Positions 4,669-30,057 of a DNA stretch of 30,284 bases are shown in pieces. The stretch comes from a virus: positions 1 through 30,284 of the IMG/VR virus record IMGVR_UViG_3300023180_004388, one strand, 5' to 3'. The position numbers and the translations under genes were made by a program. The notes below the pieces were generated by a model, which worked only from the letters and a program-made list of their open reading frames with translations, made no database searches and had not been told where the DNA came from. Positions within the stretch are counted from its first letter, which is position 1. Every line of letters begins with the position of its first letter.

Positions 4669-5007
4669 ATGAGTAAAAAGTATATTTTTGATCTAGATCA
4701 TACTCTCTGTGACACTAAGAAGGGGAAAGATGGAAAATGGGATTACTACAATGCAGTCCCATTTCATGATAGAATAGAAGTTGTTAACTCATTATGGGAA
4801 GGTGGAAACACCATAGTTATAGAAACTGCAAGAGGTTGTGGATCTAAAATCAATCATTATGTTGAGACTTTTGATCAACTTCGTTCCTGGGGACTTAAGT
4901 TTCATACACTTAGAACTGGTGTAAAATTTTCTGCTGATTATTATATTGACGATAAAGCGATAAACTCTGAGGATTTCTTCAATGGCAAGTCTACAATCTC
5001 TGATTAA
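4669..5007 (+). CDS. HAD-family phosphatase, small polysaccharide-locus type
   Basis: A 112-residue haloacid dehalogenase core without cap domain. The nucleophile motif FDLDHTL gives D8 and D10; ETARG (52-56) is motif II; K86 may be motif III; IDDKA with D94 and D95 is motif IV. Small HAD proteins of this type are common beside capsule genes and remove phosphate from sugar or amino-alcohol phosphates. The last 26 bases overlap the start of the ligase-aminotransferase fusion, so the two are translated together and may act on the same phosphorylated intermediate. The substrate cannot be read from sequence. Confidence 0.85.
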   Translation: MSKKYIFDLDHTLCDTKKGKDGKWDYYNAVPFHDRIEVVNSLWEGGNTIVIETARGCGSKINHYVETFDQLRSWGLKFHTLRTGVKFSADYYIDDKAINSEDFFNGKSTISD

Positions 5008-7471
5008 AAAGTCTCCTTCTTTTATTCAAAAGATTTACTACGATCTAGTTCCATTCTCTAAGAGATATGGTAGTGTATTCAATGAGACTTATAACTTTCT
5101 TCTTGAGAGTGAGAAGTGGAGTAGAGAAAAACTAGAAGAGTATCAACTTCAGGAGTTTAAGAAGTTGATACTGCACTGCTATGAAAATGTACCATACTAC
5201 ACCAGAGTTTTTAATGATAGGGGATTGACTCCTGATGATTTTCAATCCTTGTCTGACGTTACTAAACTTCCTTTTCTCACCAAAGACATCATAAGAGAGA
5301 ATCTCAATGATTTGATTGCCACAAACATGAGAGATCAAAAGTCTTATGAGTTTAGGACTAGTGGGTCTACTGGTAAGAAGTTGGTTTTTTATGGCACTGA
5401 TGAGGCATATAAAAAAGAAGCAGCATTTGTCCTTAGGGCATATGAAAAGCACGGAGCAAAACTCTATGACGAACCAAGCGTTTGGTTGCGTAGATATGTG
5501 CCTGTAGATAGAGGTTCTGACCTTTGGTATTATGACTATGAGTTGAAGCGACTTTATATGTCTGCTTATCACTTAAATGATAATACTATCAAGGAGTATG
5601 TTGATACAATCAATAAGAAGAAGTATCATACTCTTGTTGCTTATCCTTCCAGCATCTATGTTCTTGCTTGTCTGTGTGAAGAGCACGGTTTGAAACTCAA
5701 GCACATCAAAAAGATTCATGTGTCTTCTGAGATGATGCTGCCTGAGTGGAAGCGAAAGGTTGAAGAAGTATTTGGTATTGTTCCAGTTGCACACTATGGT
5801 GCGATTGAAAAGGTATGCTTCATGAATCAACTTGAAGATAGTGGTAAGTATTATGAGAATCTTCAGTATGGTGTCACCGAATATCTTGATGATGGAAATG
5901 GCAATCACACAATCGTTGCCACTGGATTCCTAAACTACTACATGCCTTTCCTTAGATACAAGACTGAGGATAGTGTTGTATTGAATCCTGATGCTGGTGA
6001 CTTTGATAAGGTATTGTCTATCAATGGAAGGACCAGTGACATTCTGATTGCAGAGGATGGGTCTAGACTTCCTGGTGTTAATTTCTATAGTTGGATTGAT
6101 AAAAGAGTCCCTGGAGTTTCAATGTTCCAGATTGTCCAGAAGAATAGAAAGGATATCGTTTTTAGTTTTGTTGGAAGTCAAAGGTATAGTGAAGAGACTA
6201 TTCCTCAGATCCATGAAGGCCTGACCTCTAGACTTGGTAATCTTAACTTCACTATTAATAGGGTAAGGGAGATTAAGAGAAACGAATCTACAGGAAAGAT
6301 TAGGTGCATTGTCAATAACATTCTGAAGAAGACTTCTACTAAAGAATTGTACAATCAGTTGTATGACCTGAAGAAACAAAACGGCACACATTCTCCAAGT
6401 ATCAATACAATTATTGAAAACATTCCTGAGATTCAGTGTAACATTGATGCCTGCTTCTTGAGTAATCCGTATGCCACAGACTTGTTTCTCAAGAAATTCA
6501 ATGAGGATTTGATTATTCCTAATAACATTAGAAACTATCTGGAGTTGTATCCTCAACAAAACAAATTTGTTTCTAAGAAAATCTCTGATTATATTAGTGT
6601 TCCTTCTGAAAATATCTTGGTTGGTAATGGTGCCATTGAGATTATTGAGAAGGTCATGAATAACATGTCTGGTAAGATGTTGTTGGGTCTTCCTACATTC
6701 TCTTCTTACTATGAATTCAACAAAGATTGTGAGATTGTACAAAGTGAGATTCCATTGCTTACTTCTGACGATGTAATTGCAGAAGTTAATCGGACTCAAT
6801 CAAACAATCTTCTTCTGGTTAATCCTAACAATCCCACAGGACATTACATTTCTAAAGATCAACTTAGAGTGATTCTTGAGAATCTAAAGCATCTTGATAC
6901 AATCATTGTTGATGAGAGTTTTATTCACTTCTCAACAAAGGAAAATCCAAACTCAACATCCGTTGGTGATTTGGTCACCACTTATCCGAACCTTGTAGTC
7001 ATTAAGAGTATGTCAAAGGATTTTGGCATTGCTGGTATTCGCTGTGGATATGCTATAATGTCTAAGGATAAAGTTGCGTATTCTATTGATAAAGGATTCC
7101 TTTGGAATTCTAATGGTATCTCTGAATACTTCTTCAGTCTCCTCTCTGACAAGCAGTTCATTGAAGAATACGAGAAAACTCGCATTCAGTTTTTGAATGA
7201 GTTTGATGAATTCTATGATCAATTGAAGACCATTGATGGTATTGAAGTCTATCCTTCTAAAACTAATTTCTTCCTCATTGACCTGAAGACTAAAAAATCA
7301 TTTGACTTTGTGTGTTGGATGTTGATTGAAAAAGGAATCTATGTTAGGAGTATGGACGACAAGATTGGGATGGGAATTGACACTGATACGTTTGTTAGAA
7401 TTGCTGGAAAGACCCAAGAGGAAAACAACTACATAGTAAAGTCTATTAAAGAATTTGTTGGTGATTCTTAA
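4982..7471 (+). CDS. Fusion: CapK/PaaK-like adenylate-forming ligase plus HisC-like aminotransferase
   Basis: This 829-residue protein joins two enzymes. Residues 1 to about 450 resemble phenylacetate-CoA ligase and the capsule protein CapK, with the nucleotide-binding loop RTSGSTGKK at 125-133, HYGAIEK near 271 and GRTSD near 349. From about 470 on is a fold-type I PLP enzyme like histidinol-phosphate aminotransferase: NPNNPTG at 614-620, VDESF at 643-647 and the Schiff-base lysine K679 in SMSKDFGIAGIRCGY. Related PLP enzymes in Campylobacter capsule loci (Cj1436, Cj1437) make ethanolamine phosphate or serinol phosphate. Together with the overlapping HAD gene this suggests an amino-alcohol or amino-acid modification of the glycan. 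The fusion is intact with no frameshift; the reaction itself is inferred. Confidence 0.88.
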   Translation: MASLQSLIKKSPSFIQKIYYDLVPFSKRYGSVFNETYNFLLESEKWSREKLEEYQLQEFKKLILHCYENVPYYTRVFNDRGLTPDDFQSLSDVTKLPFLTKDIIRENLNDLIATNMRDQKSYEFRTSGSTGKKLVFYGTDEAYKKEAAFVLRAYEKHGAKLYDEPSVWLRRYVPVDRGSDLWYYDYELKRLYMSAYHLNDNTIKEYVDTINKKKYHTLVAYPSSIYVLACLCEEHGLKLKHIKKIHVSSEMMLPEWKRKVEEVFGIVPVAHYGAIEKVCFMNQLEDSGKYYENLQYGVTEYLDDGNGNHTIVATGFLNYYMPFLRYKTEDSVVLNPDAGDFDKVLSINGRTSDILIAEDGSRLPGVNFYSWIDKRVPGVSMFQIVQKNRKDIVFSFVGSQRYSEETIPQIHEGLTSRLGNLNFTINRVREIKRNESTGKIRCIVNNILKKTSTKELYNQLYDLKKQNGTHSPSINTIIENIPEIQCNIDACFLSNPYATDLFLKKFNEDLIIPNNIRNYLELYPQQNKFVSKKISDYISVPSENILVGNGAIEIIEKVMNNMSGKMLLGLPTFSSYYEFNKDCEIVQSEIPLLTSDDVIAEVNRTQSNNLLLVNPNNPTGHYISKDQLRVILENLKHLDTIIVDESFIHFSTKENPNSTSVGDLVTTYPNLVVIKSMSKDFGIAGIRCGYAIMSKDKVAYSIDKGFLWNSNGISEYFFSLLSDKQFIEEYEKTRIQFLNEFDEFYDQLKTIDGIEVYPSKTNFFLIDLKTKKSFDFVCWMLIEKGIYVRSMDDKIGMGIDTDTFVRIAGKTQEENNYIVKSIKEFVGDS

Positions 7472-7474
7472 GTT

Positions 7475-8701
7475 ATGAATATTAGTTTTATTGGATTGGG
7501 AAAACTTGGATTGCCTCTTGCATGTTGCTTAGCAGAATCAGGTAATAAAGTTCTCGGTATTGATAAGAATCAATACTTCATTAATAAACTGAATAACAAA
7601 GAACTTCCATTCTTTGAACCAGGGCTTGATGAGATTTTCCCTAGTTCAAATCTAATTGGATTTACTGATTCATACGAAAGTATTTTTTCAGATACTGACG
7701 CCACCATTATCTTGGTGAATACCCAAGACCAAAATGGTGGATATTCTTCTTTAATCGTAGAGAAAGTATTAGAAGAGTTCTCTCAGTATCTTAAGGAATC
7801 GGATAAAGATTATCATCTTGTAGTTCTTTCCTCTACTGTTCTTCCTGGAACTATCAATAAACTTATTAGTTTGATTGAGGAGATCTCTGGTAGAAAGTAT
7901 GGTGAAGGATTTGGATTCTCATATGTTCCCGACTTTGTTAAGTTGGGCAATGTAATTCAGGACTTTAAGAATCCTGAGTTCTTTATGATCGGATCTAATA
8001 ATGAAAGAGATTTCTCTTTGACTAAATCCATCTGGCACACTTTCCATACCAATAATCCACCAGAAAGAAGTCTGACTCTTGAGGAGTCCGAGGTTGCTAA
8101 GGTGGCACTGAATGGTTATCTTGTTCATAAGATCACCTATGCAAACTTCTTAGGTGAACTTTGTAATGGGATGGAAAATGTTGATGTTCACAATATCACA
8201 AAGACCATTGGACTTGACAAAAGAATCTCTCCATATTTCTTTGGGTATGGTACTCCATACGGTGGAACTTGTTTCCCCAGGGACACGACAGCATTCATTA
8301 AGTTCTCAGAAGATAGAGGAAAGACTGCCAAGCATCTTTTGTTTGCTGAAGAAGTAAACGAGATGGTTTATGAAAGCATTGTTGAGAAATTACAACAATA
8401 CAACAAGATTTCTATCCTTGGTATTTCATTTAAACCAAACTCTCCAGTTACTGTTGGATCTCCATCAGTTAAACTTTTGAGTATGCTAGAAGGAAAAGAA
8501 ATTCTATGTCATGATTTTATTGACGAGACCTTTGAGAACTTACAAATATTCCAAAACCTAACTGTTAATAGGTATGATGATTTTCAAAAATGTGTTGATG
8601 ATTCTGAAGTTGCGGTTATAATGCATCCAGATAAAAGGTATGCTAGTATAAACATACATAATTGTAAATTTATTGACTATTGGGGGATCATTAAAAAATG
8701 A
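7475..8701 (+). CDS. UDP-glucose/GDP-mannose dehydrogenase family protein
   Basis: Four-electron NAD-dependent oxidation of a nucleotide sugar to the uronic acid is the family reaction. The N-terminal NAD-binding GLGKLGLP is at residues 7-14, the catalytic Lys and Asn at K209 and N213 in EVAKVALNG, and the nucleophile C266 in GGTCFPRD. The C-terminal UDP-binding domain begins at ISILGISFKPN. The usual SPEF loop reads VPDF, so the Glu is replaced by Asp, which may slow the reaction or change substrate. At 408 residues it has near-normal length. It follows the fusion gene by three bases and overlaps the next by ATGA. The substrate sugar is unknown. Confidence 0.88.
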   Translation: MNISFIGLGKLGLPLACCLAESGNKVLGIDKNQYFINKLNNKELPFFEPGLDEIFPSSNLIGFTDSYESIFSDTDATIILVNTQDQNGGYSSLIVEKVLEEFSQYLKESDKDYHLVVLSSTVLPGTINKLISLIEEISGRKYGEGFGFSYVPDFVKLGNVIQDFKNPEFFMIGSNNERDFSLTKSIWHTFHTNNPPERSLTLEESEVAKVALNGYLVHKITYANFLGELCNGMENVDVHNITKTIGLDKRISPYFFGYGTPYGGTCFPRDTTAFIKFSEDRGKTAKHLLFAEEVNEMVYESIVEKLQQYNKISILGISFKPNSPVTVGSPSVKLLSMLEGKEILCHDFIDETFENLQIFQNLTVNRYDDFQKCVDDSEVAVIMHPDKRYASINIHNCKFIDYWGIIKK

Positions 8702-9375
8702 AATCACTTGAATATCTTAGTGAAATACTTAGTAAGAATGTTAGATATTCTTCTATAAAGCATATCTATGAATACATTAAAAATAATAAAGCAAAAAGAT
8801 TTATAGAGTTTGGAACATCTAGAGTAAATTTTGAAGGGAACTCTACAATTTTTTTGGCGTTGCTTGCTAAAGAAAATGGAGCAAAATTTACTTCAGTAGA
8901 TATATCGCAGCAATGTATTGATAATGCAATCAAAATTATTAAAGATTTTGATGAAGATCTACTTCAATACATTGAGTTTGTTTGTATGGATCAATATGAA
9001 TACATGAAAAATTATGATGGAGAATCTGCACAATATGTTTACTTAGATTGTGATGATAATCATAAGCACGATGCATTTAAATCTTTGTTAGAATCTGATA
9101 TTTTAGATTTTGATTCTTTGATATGTATTGATGACATGATTACTCAGGATCGCGGATGTATAGTTCAGGTAGATGGAGTTGTTGATATTGTAAATTGCAA
9201 TTCAGAACATCTAACACCTTTAGATAGAATTGATTATGGCGAAACTATTAACTCTGAACAAATAGAATGGAATAGAAAAAATAAACTTTTTCCACAAACA
9301 GAGGATAATTTTTTAGTTCATGAAAAAGGAGTAAGACAATTTGAGTATCAAATATTAGTAGAGTGTAAAAAATGA
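8698..9375 (+). CDS. Class I SAM-dependent methyltransferase-like protein
   Basis: A 225-residue Rossmann-type protein. Motif I is IEFGTSR near residue 36-42, with the acidic end of strand 2 in FTSVDIS and a later acidic strand in YVYLDCDD followed by LICIDDM. This order fits the O-methyltransferase-like Methyltransf_24 group often found in polysaccharide loci. The gene is strongly AT-rich compared with the photosynthesis genes. It overlaps both neighbours by ATGA. A sugar or side-chain hydroxyl is the probable target; this is inferred from context. Confidence 0.7.
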   Translation: MKSLEYLSEILSKNVRYSSIKHIYEYIKNNKAKRFIEFGTSRVNFEGNSTIFLALLAKENGAKFTSVDISQQCIDNAIKIIKDFDEDLLQYIEFVCMDQYEYMKNYDGESAQYVYLDCDDNHKHDAFKSLLESDILDFDSLICIDDMITQDRGCIVQVDGVVDIVNCNSEHLTPLDRIDYGETINSEQIEWNRKNKLFPQTEDNFLVHEKGVRQFEYQILVECKK

Positions 9376-10028
9376 TTGACGTACTGCAAAAGGATCTTCT
9401 TGAAAAAATAAACAAAAAGAAGATAGTAAGTATTGGTGATTCGCATTCTCTTTTCTTTAGTAATTTAAACTATATTAAAATCAATCATATAGGTCCTGTC
9501 ACTGCATATAATTTGATGAAAGAAAACTCTACCACAAGAGGGAGAGAAATATTTTATGATTTTTTGAAAACTGAAAATTCTAATGACACTGCATTATTAT
9601 TGTCTTTCGGTGAAATTGATTTACGAGTTCATGTTGTTAAGGCATCTTTACGTGATTCCATTTCTATAAAAGAATCCGCAATTAATACTGCAAAGAGATA
9701 TACTATGTTTATTGATGAAATACTTAATTTGGGGTGGACTATCTTAGTTCAAGGACCTTCTGCAAATGGAGAAGAAAGAGCTCTAAATCTAGATTATCCT
9801 TATTCTGGTAGTATTGTTGAAAGAAATCAAGCAACTATCATTTTTAATAATGAATTGGAAAACTATTGTAAGCAGAATTCTATTTTATTTGCATCCTTAT
9901 ATGACTTATCCATAGATCAAAATACATTTGATACTAGATCTGAATATTTGTCTGATGGGTGCCATTTACATAAAGATCCATATCTACAATCTATCATGAT
10001 ATCTAGATATATTAATTTTAATAATTAA
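9372..10028 (+). CDS. SGNH/GDSL-type esterase or acyltransferase
   Basis: The 218-residue protein carries the hydrolase signature in the right order: block I GDSHS with nucleophile S24, a block III-like FGEIDLR, and the C-terminal D195-G-C-H198 that completes the triad. SGNH enzymes in glycan loci add or remove O-acetyl groups. No signal peptide is present, so it would act in the cytoplasm on a precursor. It lies between two methyltransferase genes in the most AT-rich part of the island. The fold call is fairly strong; direction of reaction and substrate are open. Confidence 0.75.
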   Translation: MIDVLQKDLLEKINKKKIVSIGDSHSLFFSNLNYIKINHIGPVTAYNLMKENSTTRGREIFYDFLKTENSNDTALLLSFGEIDLRVHVVKASLRDSISIKESAINTAKRYTMFIDEILNLGWTILVQGPSANGEERALNLDYPYSGSIVERNQATIIFNNELENYCKQNSILFASLYDLSIDQNTFDTRSEYLSDGCHLHKDPYLQSIMISRYINFNN

Positions 10029-10033
10029 AAATT

Positions 10034-10747
10034 ATGAATAAAATAGTTAAAAATGTACTAGAAAAGTATTTGGTAGATGGGAATATTAATGTACCTTCCA
10101 AATATACTAGAGTTAAAATAGATGTAGGAACTTCCATCAATGCACCAAATTCCGAATATTGGTTGGATGGTGAAAATGATTTATGTGTATTTGGATTTGA
10201 ACCAAATCCATTTAATGTAGAATATTTAAAGACCTTTCCCAAAAAAATTTGGCCAATTCATCTGGATCCTAGTAGGATTGATAATGATTTTTTCCTATTA
10301 GAGACTGCTCTTTCGGACAAGGATCCGCAATACTTGAATTTCTATTGCACAGATGATGATTCGGGAACATCTAGTTTATACAAACCAAATTATTTTGGGG
10401 TGAAGGAAGAAGTCAAGGTTCCATCAATAAGATTAAAAGATTTTTTTGATGTTTTTCCTTGGGATCAAATTCCATACATAGAACATTTAAAAATTGATGC
10501 TCAGAATTCTGATTTTGATATTGTAAGAAGTGCTGGAGAATACTTGAAAAATAATGTTATGTTCTTAAGTGTAGAGGTAACAACAAATAATCAATATGAA
10601 AATACTCTTTCATCATCTGAAATGAAAGAGTATATTGAAAGTCAGGGATTTGTTTGCTTCAACTGGAAATCCAATGGAAATTTTTATAATAAGAATTTTG
10701 AAGATAAATTAGATGCAATTAATTTTGTTTTTTTGGAGACTGATTGA
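10034..10747 (+). CDS. FkbM-family methyltransferase
   Basis: A 237-residue protein with the FkbM layout: KIDVGTS as SAM-binding motif I, GFEPNPFN as the acidic strand 2 loop, a TALSDKD segment, SIRLKDFF and LKIDAQNSDFDIVRSA, all hallmark blocks. FkbM enzymes O-methylate sugars or polyketides. Here the target is probably a hydroxyl of the glycan built by this island. The stop overlaps a possible TTG start of the next gene. Confidence 0.85.
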   Translation: MNKIVKNVLEKYLVDGNINVPSKYTRVKIDVGTSINAPNSEYWLDGENDLCVFGFEPNPFNVEYLKTFPKKIWPIHLDPSRIDNDFFLLETALSDKDPQYLNFYCTDDDSGTSSLYKPNYFGVKEEVKVPSIRLKDFFDVFPWDQIPYIEHLKIDAQNSDFDIVRSAGEYLKNNVMFLSVEVTTNNQYENTLSSSEMKEYIESQGFVCFNWKSNGNFYNKNFEDKLDAINFVFLETD

Positions 10748-10749
10748 AC

Positions 10750-11607
10750 ATGATATATTTGACTACTAATACTGATGGATGGGATACGGAAGGGATTGGT
10801 TCTATATGCCAGTGGAATCTTTTACTTTTCTGTATTTCTAGAGATCTAGAAGTTAATCCCTCCATTCCTCCATATAAAAATATTGCACACTATGATTACA
10901 CTTCATACTCTTCTGAGGAATGGAGTGAATCTTTTACTAAGTTCTTCAATTTTCCATATGAAACTGAGTTTGATGTGGAATATGATTTCAATGGTTCTTA
11001 TGAAGATCTAAAAGTATTTGTTGAGGAAAATAAAAACAAAGAAGAGAAGATCTTGATTGATGTCCCTAAGATGTTCATTGTTGATCATGGGCAAAGTAAT
11101 ATCAATCGTTTCTTTGAAAAACAGTATTTAAAAGAGATCAGAGACGGACTTAAAGTTGATGATACTTATTTTGAAGATGGAGTAGTAAATATATCTCTTC
11201 ATATACGATCCAATAATGCAAATGATGTTGATTTTTCAAATTCTAGAGAAGCATTTGGACGGCACATTGATTCAACCAAATTCAAAACTTTGATTGGTGA
11301 ATTGATTGAAAAGCATAAAGATGAACAAGTTCATTTGCATATCCACTCACAGGGGCAGATTGAGAATTTTTATGATATAATGGAACTATCTACAGAAAGT
11401 TTCAAGATCACTTGCCATTTGAATGATCATCCAACAAAAGACATATACCATATGTCTCATGCAGATTATTTGATTATGGCAAACAGTTCTTATAGTTGGA
11501 TCTGTCACTTACTGAGTGGTAATCCAACTTATGTTAGAGATAACTTCTGGCATTCTGTATATCCAAATGCTGTGTTCTTAGACTCAAATTATCAAATAAA
11601 ATTATGA
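10750..11607 (+). CDS. Putative GT11-like glycosyltransferase
   Basis: The protein of 285 residues looks like a divergent GT-B fucosyltransferase-type enzyme. A strand ISLHIRSNN occupies the position of the HxRRGD donor-binding motif, and near the C terminus MSHADYLIMANSSYSW matches the pattern 'ADxxIxxNSSxSWW' of GT11 enzymes. Both key positions are degenerate: HIRSN in place of HVRRGD. The ATG at 10750 is preferred over an in-frame TTG at 10744. The next gene is a clear GT11 and overlaps by ATGA. An inactive or altered-specificity relative is possible. Confidence 0.6.
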   Translation: MIYLTTNTDGWDTEGIGSICQWNLLLFCISRDLEVNPSIPPYKNIAHYDYTSYSSEEWSESFTKFFNFPYETEFDVEYDFNGSYEDLKVFVEENKNKEEKILIDVPKMFIVDHGQSNINRFFEKQYLKEIRDGLKVDDTYFEDGVVNISLHIRSNNANDVDFSNSREAFGRHIDSTKFKTLIGELIEKHKDEQVHLHIHSQGQIENFYDIMELSTESFKITCHLNDHPTKDIYHMSHADYLIMANSSYSWICHLLSGNPTYVRDNFWHSVYPNAVFLDSNYQIKL

Positions 11608-18458: not shown

Positions 18459-18827
18459 ATGATCAAATCCGCATTCGCAGCACTCGCCGCTGCTCCCCTT
18501 TTCGCTGGTGCTGCAATGGCAGGACCCTACGTTAACGTTGAAGCCAACTCTGGTTTCACTGGTAGCGACTACAATGGCACGACCACTGACCTCCACGTAG
18601 GTTATGAAGGTGCTCTTGGTGAGTCCGCTTCCTACTACGTCCAAGGCGGTCCTTCGGTCGTAATGCCTGATGGTGGCGATACCGATACCGTTTTCTCTGG
18701 TAAGGCAGGTCTGGGTCTCGCCGCCACCGAGAACCTGGGTGTCTATGGTGAAGTTTCCTTCGCCACTGGTGCTAACGGTGCTGACAACGGTTACGGAACC
18801 AAAGTCGGTGTCAAGTACAGCTTCTGA
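18459..18827 (+). CDS. Exported porin-like outer-membrane protein (122 aa)
   Basis: A signal peptide of about 21 residues ends at AMA, followed by GPYVNVEANSG. The mature part alternates polar and aromatic residues, as in beta strands, with turns such as GADNGYG, and the protein ends in KVGVKYSF. The terminal Phe is the classic recognition signal for the outer-membrane BAM machinery. About 100 mature residues would make a small barrel or a plug domain. It is a paralogue of the gene at 19034. GAGGT-like ACGAGGT nine bases before the ATG serves as ribosome site. A role in phosphate or nutrient entry is inferred from the neighbouring pstS. Confidence 0.7.
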   Translation: MIKSAFAALAAAPLFAGAAMAGPYVNVEANSGFTGSDYNGTTTDLHVGYEGALGESASYYVQGGPSVVMPDGGDTDTVFSGKAGLGLAATENLGVYGEVSFATGANGADNGYGTKVGVKYSF

Positions 18828-19033: not shown

Positions 19034-19390
19034 ATGAAAGCATTCGCACTTGCCGCACTGGCAATCCCCATGGTGACGGCACCTGCCCTTGCTGGTCCAT
19101 ACGTCATGACCAAATCGGAGTTCAAGTTCTCGGATGAGAACTATAAGGAAGCAGTAAACCAAGCACGTCTTGGATACGACTGGAAAGTCGGTGCTCTGAA
19201 ACCCTATGTTGAACTGGGTGGTGGTGCTAAGACCCCTGATGGTGGTGCTTCTAAAGGTTTCACTGCTGCTGAGATTGGTACTGGTATTAAAATGACTGAC
19301 CAACTCTCTGCTAAACTGAAAGCCGAAGCAACTCAAACTTCTGGTAAAACCAGTTGGAAAGCAGAACTCAGCACCAAGTATCGTTTCTGA
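19034..19390 (+). CDS. Exported porin-like outer-membrane protein (118 aa)
   Basis: A paralogue of the preceding gene: signal peptide ending ALA, then GPYVMTKSEFKF, amphipathic strand pattern and the end STKYRF with terminal Phe. About 98 mature residues would give roughly eight short strands. It is preceded by the possible PHO box and followed after 21 bases by pstS, so both are probably on one phosphate-responsive transcript. AAAGGAAAT before the ATG is a fair ribosome site. Function in phosphate passage through the outer membrane is an inference. Confidence 0.7.
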   Translation: MKAFALAALAIPMVTAPALAGPYVMTKSEFKFSDENYKEAVNQARLGYDWKVGALKPYVELGGGAKTPDGGASKGFTAAEIGTGIKMTDQLSAKLKAEATQTSGKTSWKAELSTKYRF

Positions 19391-29607: not shown

Positions 29608-30057
29608 ATGGCGAAACCAACTCAAACTACTGGAAGCAAGACCTGCACCAAGTGTGGTGTAACCAAAGACATCACAGAGTTTTATAAAAGGGGTGGAAAG
29701 CAGTCACCAAATACAAGACATAACCATTGTAAAGAATGCACTAAAAGTAGAGTTTCTAAAAACTATGCAAAAGACCCTATGGTGTGGAGAAATGCTGAAT
29801 TGCAAAGAAGGTATGGCATTACTCAAAACGATTATGAGGTAATGATTGCAGAGCAAAATAACCAGTGTGCCATTTGTAATACAACAGAACCTGGTGGAAG
29901 GCACAATAGTGGTTATTTTGTTGTAGATCATTGTCATACTACTGGTAAGGTTAGAAAACTACTCTGTCATAACTGCAACACAGCACTGGGTCTTGTAGGA
30001 GATAATGTAGATACTCTCCACAAGATGATTAACTACCTAAGCACAAACACTCATTGA
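29608..30057 (+). CDS. HNH endonuclease (endonuclease VII type), probable homing endonuclease
   Basis: The 149-residue protein has an N-terminal zinc ribbon (C13, C16, C41, C44) and a C-terminal endonuclease VII-type domain: CAIC at 87-90, the catalytic DHCH at 107-110, and CHNCNTALG at 120-128. Its place between psbA and psbD is that of F-CphI of cyanophage S-PM2, a free-standing homing endonuclease that cuts psbA at the intron insertion site. Here psbA has no intron. A ten-base direct repeat ATACACGAAT (29587 and 29600) lies just before and across the start codon. Identity as a homing enzyme is inferred from position and family. Confidence 0.85.
   Translation: MAKPTQTTGSKTCTKCGVTKDITEFYKRGGKQSPNTRHNHCKECTKSRVSKNYAKDPMVWRNAELQRRYGITQNDYEVMIAEQNNQCAICNTTEPGGRHNSGYFVVDHCHTTGKVRKLLCHNCNTALGLVGDNVDTLHKMINYLSTNTH

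Follow-up and report, generated by a model that had tools for sequence, protein, structure and literature searches.

The window analysed here, a whole stretch of 30,284 nucleotides, is a fragment from the record of a cyanophage-like virus, that is, a virus of photosynthetic bacteria: it contains zwf, pstS and psbA genes, and the 217 phage records that match its DNA are in nearly all cases Synechococcus phages or cyanophages. Between approximately 3.5 and 16.7 kb lies a glycan island encoding epimerases, GT11, GT6 and GT25 proteins and methyltransferases. Inside it are a HAD gene, a gene for a CapK-PLP fusion protein and a nucleotide-sugar dehydrogenase (UGDH) gene, with the following features:

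4669..5007, + strand: predicted HAD-superfamily phosphatase, capless, 112 aa (four HAD motifs; match to PDB 9iqw)
4982..5007, + strand: overlap of the HAD and fusion genes, 26 nt (identical length in L002-L006)
4982..7471, + strand: fusion of a CapK/PaaK-like ligase and a PLP enzyme, 829 aa (single ORF, no internal stop)
4982..6340, + strand: adenylate-forming domain (PaaK/CapK, ANL fold), residues 1-453 (domain model, fold matches, motifs)
5354..5380, + strand: ATP-binding loop RTSGSTGKK, residues 125-133 (sequence, 33-sequence alignment)
6296..6298, + strand: predicted A10-type catalytic lysine K439 (TGKIR), invariant in 33 CapK sequences
6344..7468, + strand: PLP domain, residues 455-829, SMUL_1544-type decarboxylase fold (6oux, E 1.6e-87, 42% identity; model Z 44.7)
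7016..7018, + strand: Schiff-base lysine K679 (SMSKDFG), nearly invariant in the 26-row alignment A4
7475..8701, + strand: UGDH of the UDP-glucose/GDP-mannose dehydrogenase family, 408 aa, Cys266 in GGTCFP (TIGR03026)

Elsewhere in the window, two further island proteins (9372-10028 and 10744-11607) matched nothing in Pfam or PHROG at E 0.001, and two short proteins with signal-peptide-like starts encoded just 5' of pstS (18459-18827 and 19034-19390) resemble small outer-membrane barrels. Immediately 3' of psbA is an endonuclease VII-type (HNH-like) gene (29608-30057); endonuclease VII-type genes in this position may be homing or mobile elements. A late-promoter scan with TATAAATA returned matches at chance level.

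A preliminary description of this DNA had proposed that one uninterrupted protein of 829 residues is encoded here and that the HAD gene overlaps its start. Both points hold: the ORF, preceded by GAGG 5' of its ATG, runs without an internal stop, and the same single-ORF fusion was recovered, when other genomes were searched as that description had advised, in five other viral contigs of IMG/VR (L002-L006; 83-97% identity), where the HAD gene, the 26-nt overlap and the UGDH are arranged as in the window and the flanking genes differ. Estimates of dN/dS among the fusion ORFs of the viral contigs (Nei-Gojobori) are ~0.04-0.12 in both the ligase and the PLP halves, with synonymous sites near saturation in the distant pairs and the 97% pair alone giving 0.08 and 0.05; strong purifying selection therefore maintains the ligase half and the PLP half alike. 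That an assembly join or a frameshift merged two genes, an error the preliminary description had itself raised, would agree with CapK and PLP being separate genes in Flavobacteriales, but it is ruled out for practical purposes, because one ORF with the same junction occurs in six independent contigs and dN/dS lies well below 1 on both sides of it. The fusion was absent from samples of cellular genomes (395 from the phylum of G001 and 150 from the order of G007), and among 50,697 records of isolated phages the fusion and its ligase domain had only distant relatives, the best reaching ~25-34%. In one of the related contigs, a carbamoyltransferase gene (L002:6108-7691) lies directly 5' of the HAD-fusion-UGDH set, which hints at carbamoylated sugars in the same glycan.

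The ligase half has no Pfam match and gives weak PaaK-family matches in NCBIfam. It was modelled poorly at first, from a shallow alignment, and a separate domain model (pLDDT 89.9, pTM 0.86) was used instead. The latter matches PDB 4r1l (Z 25.8) and the PaaK-type AMP ligases PaaK1/2 (Z ~25), with NatL2, AjiA1, ClxA and then the GH3 amido synthetases (Z ~16) as more distant folds. Residues G128/G131, Y272-G273..E276, R325-Y326..D330, G349-R350 and K439 are invariant in 33 phage and bacterial CapKs, and the ATP loop, YG..E, RY.T.D, GR and C-terminal lysine of the ANL fold are all present, confirming the adenylate-forming domain that had been recognised from RTSGSTGKK. As a phenylacetate-CoA ligase the domain fails, scoring 76 bits against the PaaK equivalog (TIGR02155) cut-off of 646.3. 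Adenylating enzymes activate a carboxylate, and for this reason the ligase would act on a sugar acid and not, as initially suggested, on the amino alcohol. We know of no CapK-family protein that has been proven to amidate a sugar acid, and a literature search for CapK with uronic amides found nothing. McbA, another ANL enzyme, forms an amide directly from the adenylate without a carrier (PMC6282839).

By sequence, tree and fold, the PLP domain groups with SMUL_1544 (PDB 6oux). This is its closest solved relative (297.8 bits, the next chain scoring 95.9), and the domain model superimposes on it with an rmsd of 2.1 over 371 residues (Z 44.7), the next folds being CobD (Z 36.8) and HisC (Z 35.2); identity is 42% to SMUL_1544 vs 23% to CobD. 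The N-terminal motifs GxHSPS and IDACxLSNPYA are common to both proteins, HSPS and IDAC.LSNPYA being invariant. K679 stands as previously assigned, and the label 'HisC-like' is correct at the level of the superfamily but not as HisC itself: the domain misses the NCBIfam cut-offs of the HisC equivalog TIGR01141 (156.7 bits vs 276.55) and of the CobD equivalog TIGR01140 (152 bits vs 290.55) by more than 100 bits each. Histidine biosynthesis is ruled out by these cut-offs, the tree and the genomic context. The 6oux entry bears the title 'Structure of SMUL_1544, a decarboxylase from Sulfurospirillum multivorans', and the activity of this enzyme was reportedly tested by Keller in 2016. SMUL_1544 has been proposed to produce ethanolamine phosphate for norcobamide, in the wording that it 'might be responsible' (PMC4585668). 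By homology, the phage domain would likewise decarboxylate O-phospho-L-serine.

The HAD protein matches PDB 9iqw, 'Capsule biosynthesis protein' (E 1e-7), and shows a weak match to the EcbF-BcbF capsule phosphatases, below the subfamily cut-off of TIGR01689 (23.4 vs 162 bits). Its motifs DxDxT (DLDxT), (T)xRG, K and DD are kept in 31 distinct HADs of the phage module described below, and, taken alone, it has relatives of ~40-46% in cultured cyanophages, beside sugar-phosphate genes. The next gene had been read as a nucleotide-sugar dehydrogenase, and the UGDH indeed passes the cut-off of that family (TIGR03026, 244.6 vs 189.8 bits) while staying below the UDP-glucose-specific equivalogs (e.g. 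AglM, 195.8 vs 670 bits); GGTCFP, with the catalytic Cys, is present in every module UGDH examined.

A search with the ligase-domain alignment yielded 43 viral loci, reduced to a set of 42 by leaving out the distant L157. Linkage is conserved throughout this set: a HAD gene lies just 5' of CapK in 41/41 testable loci (at ≤1.3 kb and usually overlapping), and a UGDH gene lies 3' of it in all 40 that could be tested, for CapKs down to 39% identity, while the neighbourhood beyond the module genes varies. A PLP gene, of the decarboxylase type in some loci and of the HisC/transaminase type in others, is found in 38 of 41 testable loci, in three arrangements: type A, a SMUL-type PLP domain fused to CapK (5 loci and the window); type B, a SMUL-type enzyme encoded by a separate gene (4 loci); and type C, a separate HisC-type gene (29 loci). 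The fusion thus represents one form of a broader phage module with four parts, HAD, CapK, PLP and UGDH. The three remaining loci (L120, L122 and L149) have HAD, CapK and UGDH without a PLP gene, and no aminotransferase of the PLP Pfam family occurs anywhere in their contigs, one of which is 184 kb long, so the amine may there come from the host or differ. Genes of the psbA type were found in 6, and a T4-type capsid gene in 9, of the 34 module contigs tested. A stand-alone SMUL-type PLP gene also occurs in a viral glycan island that has no CapK (L010:7965-9137), followed by a gene for a protein with a C-terminal HAD-like segment.

The alternation of SMUL-type and HisC-type enzymes was followed in trees of both halves (35 distinct ligases; some loci are near-duplicates, with identical values for L124-L127 and L156). 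The fused ligases are nested with type C and PLP-less loci in the ligase tree, where a joint clade with type B is firmly rejected (AU p 2.5e-8). The PLP tree places the fused enzymes among those of SMUL type; a joint clade with type B is not rejected (AU p 0.33), and one with type C is rejected less strongly (AU p 0.018). The trees differ, and the two halves of the fusion therefore have different histories: on these phylogenies, a SMUL-type PLP enzyme, acquired either from other phages or from bacteria, would have entered a lineage of ligases whose relatives are paired with HisC-type enzymes.

Comparable gene sets exist in bacteria. Two Flavobacteriales MAGs and one other Bacteroidota genome encode CapK, a PLP enzyme (~46% identical) and a HAD-IB-like phosphatase in adjacent separate genes, and in G001 a single query alignment spans CapK and PLP across one stop codon. 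These trios (L011, L012 and L112) resemble the phage genes in having the same three functions side by side with CapK directly 5' of PLP; they differ in that the genes are separate, CapK is ~30% identical, and the HAD protein is larger, of the HAD-IB type and encoded downstream. Genes for a four-motif HAD protein and a RimK-like ATP-grasp ligase come after that of the same PLP enzyme in Flavobacterium, Pedobacter and Tenacibaculum. LicC-like nucleotidyltransferases are the fusion partners of more distant PLP relatives in many bacteria (~603 aa; Lachnospiraceae, Sulfurimonas and others): the broad PLP group and its position behind an activating domain are the same as in the phage, but the N-terminal domain is a nucleotidyltransferase there and an adenylating ligase here. 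The recurring logic is a maker of an amino-alcohol phosphate together with a phosphatase and an activating or ligating enzyme. Two capsule-type loci of Bacteroidota (L111:7854-11058 and L113:52-2172) have CapK beside a PHP-type phosphoesterase, an unrelated phosphatase that seemingly replaces HAD; a HisC-like PLP gene follows the pair in L111, the one of the two loci where contig limits leave it visible.

In Campylobacter jejuni, Cj1436 makes ethanolamine phosphate from phosphoserine and Cj1437 makes serinol phosphate, and Cj1438C amidates glucuronate already in the chain, producing ADP, after which Cj1435 takes off the phosphate (PMC11800397). UDP-GlcA does not serve Cj1438C as a substrate. 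Given this order and the direct amide formation by McbA, adenylation would fall on the sugar carboxylate and dephosphorylation would come last. We consider it somewhat better than an even bet that the HAD gene, the fusion and the UGDH constitute a uronic-acid amidation cassette of the cyanophage glycan island, which uses an ethanolamine-type amine. The UGDH would convert a UDP-hexose, with UDP-glucose as the likeliest candidate, by oxidation into its UDP-uronic acid, and a glycosyltransferase would place the uronic acid into a glycan. The PLP domain would decarboxylate O-phospho-L-serine to ethanolamine phosphate; the CapK domain would adenylate the uronic acid carboxylate with ATP, and attack by the amine of ethanolamine phosphate, which the fusion could hand to the ligase, would give the amide, AMP and PPi. 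Removal of the phosphate by the HAD enzyme would finally leave a hydroxyethyl-amide. We infer each of these substrates, the order of the steps and the target glycan, which may be on the virion or on the host surface; the methyltransferases encoded near the fusion could imply an extra modification of the product.

Part of the preliminary proposal is consistent with this scheme. An amide-linked uronic acid decoration, and the comparison with the serinol/ethanolamine system of Campylobacter from which it was drawn, are supported by the C. jejuni pathway, which is proven, by the 42 phage loci with this cassette and by the CapK-PLP-HAD and PLP-HAD-ATP-grasp gene sets of bacteria. The product had been left as an amino alcohol or an amino acid; because the PLP domain is of the phosphoserine-decarboxylase (SMUL_1544) type, ethanolamine phosphate, as from Cj1436, is more likely than serinol phosphate, as from Cj1437, or an amino acid. 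Removal of the phosphate before attachment, in turn, is disfavoured by analogy with C. jejuni, where the phosphatase acts after ligation (PMC11800397).

The same cassette might employ another amine, with CapK joining to the uronic acid either 1-aminopropan-2-ol phosphate from threonine phosphate or serinol phosphate from a transamination. SMUL_1544, CobD and HisC belong to one superfamily, CobD is the second-best fold match and most phage modules have a HisC-type enzyme; the PLP domain is nevertheless much closer to SMUL_1544 than to CobD in both identity and Z score, and it scores 152 bits against the CobD cut-off of 290.55, so that we regard another amine as unlikely, if far from negligible. 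A little less probable still is that the acid activated by CapK is a small one (fatty, hydroxy or amino), with which it acylates a sugar amine or the amine made by the PLP domain, leaving the UGDH as a bystander in the island: the PaaK fold is known chiefly for adenylation of small acids, but the best PaaK model score falls far short of its cut-off, and the UGDH accompanies even the most divergent CapKs in every testable locus where other neighbours vary.

The fusions of related PLP domains to LicC-like nucleotidyltransferases would suit a nucleotide-activated ethanolamine route, in which ethanolamine phosphate is used as such for phosphoethanolamine transfer and the ligase acts elsewhere; we give this very little credence, as the fusion has no nucleotidyltransferase and the adjoining phosphatase would destroy ethanolamine phosphate. 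Cobamide (norcobamide) biosynthesis, the setting of SMUL_1544 in Sulfurospirillum and of a close homologue in the cobamide operon at L020 (PMC7755780), is rejected on genomic context and retains hardly any probability: the fusion is surrounded by glycan genes, no cobamide gene was seen among the window ORFs, the PLP domain is fused to CapK, and its bacterial relatives reside in capsule loci.

Amidation of a uronic acid with an ethanolamine-type amine, our preferred reading, may extend beyond the window. Somewhat more tentatively, and at just short of even chances, we propose that phages including cyanophages carry a modular glycan-amidation cassette with a new class of AMP-forming sugar-acid amide ligase, in which a swap of the PLP enzyme changes the amine (ethanolamine with the decarboxylase, another amino alcohol with the transaminase) and the decarboxylase became fused to the ligase in the lineage of the window. 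That the same ligase is paired with two PLP types in alternation suggests diversifying pressure on the identity of the amine, which would be expected of surface glycans with a part in adsorption, superinfection exclusion or virion masking. The kind of pathway is known from Campylobacter capsules; a virus-borne, amine-swappable version with another ligase class and a ligase-PLP fusion appears, as far as our searches reach, to be new, and our literature search found no report of a uronic-acid amide decoration in a virus. If the proposal is correct, viruses could neutralise and diversify acidic sugars by means known to us only from bacterial capsules, and a new ligase class for sugar-acid amidation could be named. 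Some 'phenylacetate-CoA ligase' or paaK labels in aquatic viromes would then denote glycan decoration genes and deserve re-checking: a freshwater virome survey takes viral PaaK as phenylacetate degradation (PMC9554406), and some of its PaaK genes may be CapK-type glycan ligases.

Among known systems, capsule amidation in C. jejuni unites the same four functions as those predicted for the phage, namely a HAD phosphatase, a PLP enzyme, an ATP-dependent ligase and a UDP-glucose dehydrogenase; in strain HS:19, HS19.09-12 are the phosphatase, PLP enzyme, ligase and UGDH (PMC13276843). The alternation of SMUL- and HisC-type enzymes in the phage modules parallels that of the phosphoserine decarboxylase Cj1436 and the DHAP transaminase Cj1437 (PMC11800397). 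ADP is released by the Campylobacter ligase, whose fusion partner is a glycosyltransferase; the phage ligase belongs to the PaaK/CapK adenylating class, has an ANL/PaaK (AMP-forming) fold, unlike the ADP-forming Cj1438C, and shares one polypeptide with the PLP enzyme. The HAD protein of the phage (112 aa), compared by size only, is about half of Cj1435 (25.8 kDa). SMUL_1544 is a stand-alone enzyme of a cobamide operon, whereas the phage PLP domain and its ligase form one protein encoded in a glycan operon. Finally, PaaK, McbA and the GH3 amide synthetases share the ANL fold of the phage ligase, and McbA also forms amides from an adenylate; from PaaK itself the phage ligase is set apart by a score far under the family cut-off and by its predicted substrate, a uronic acid.
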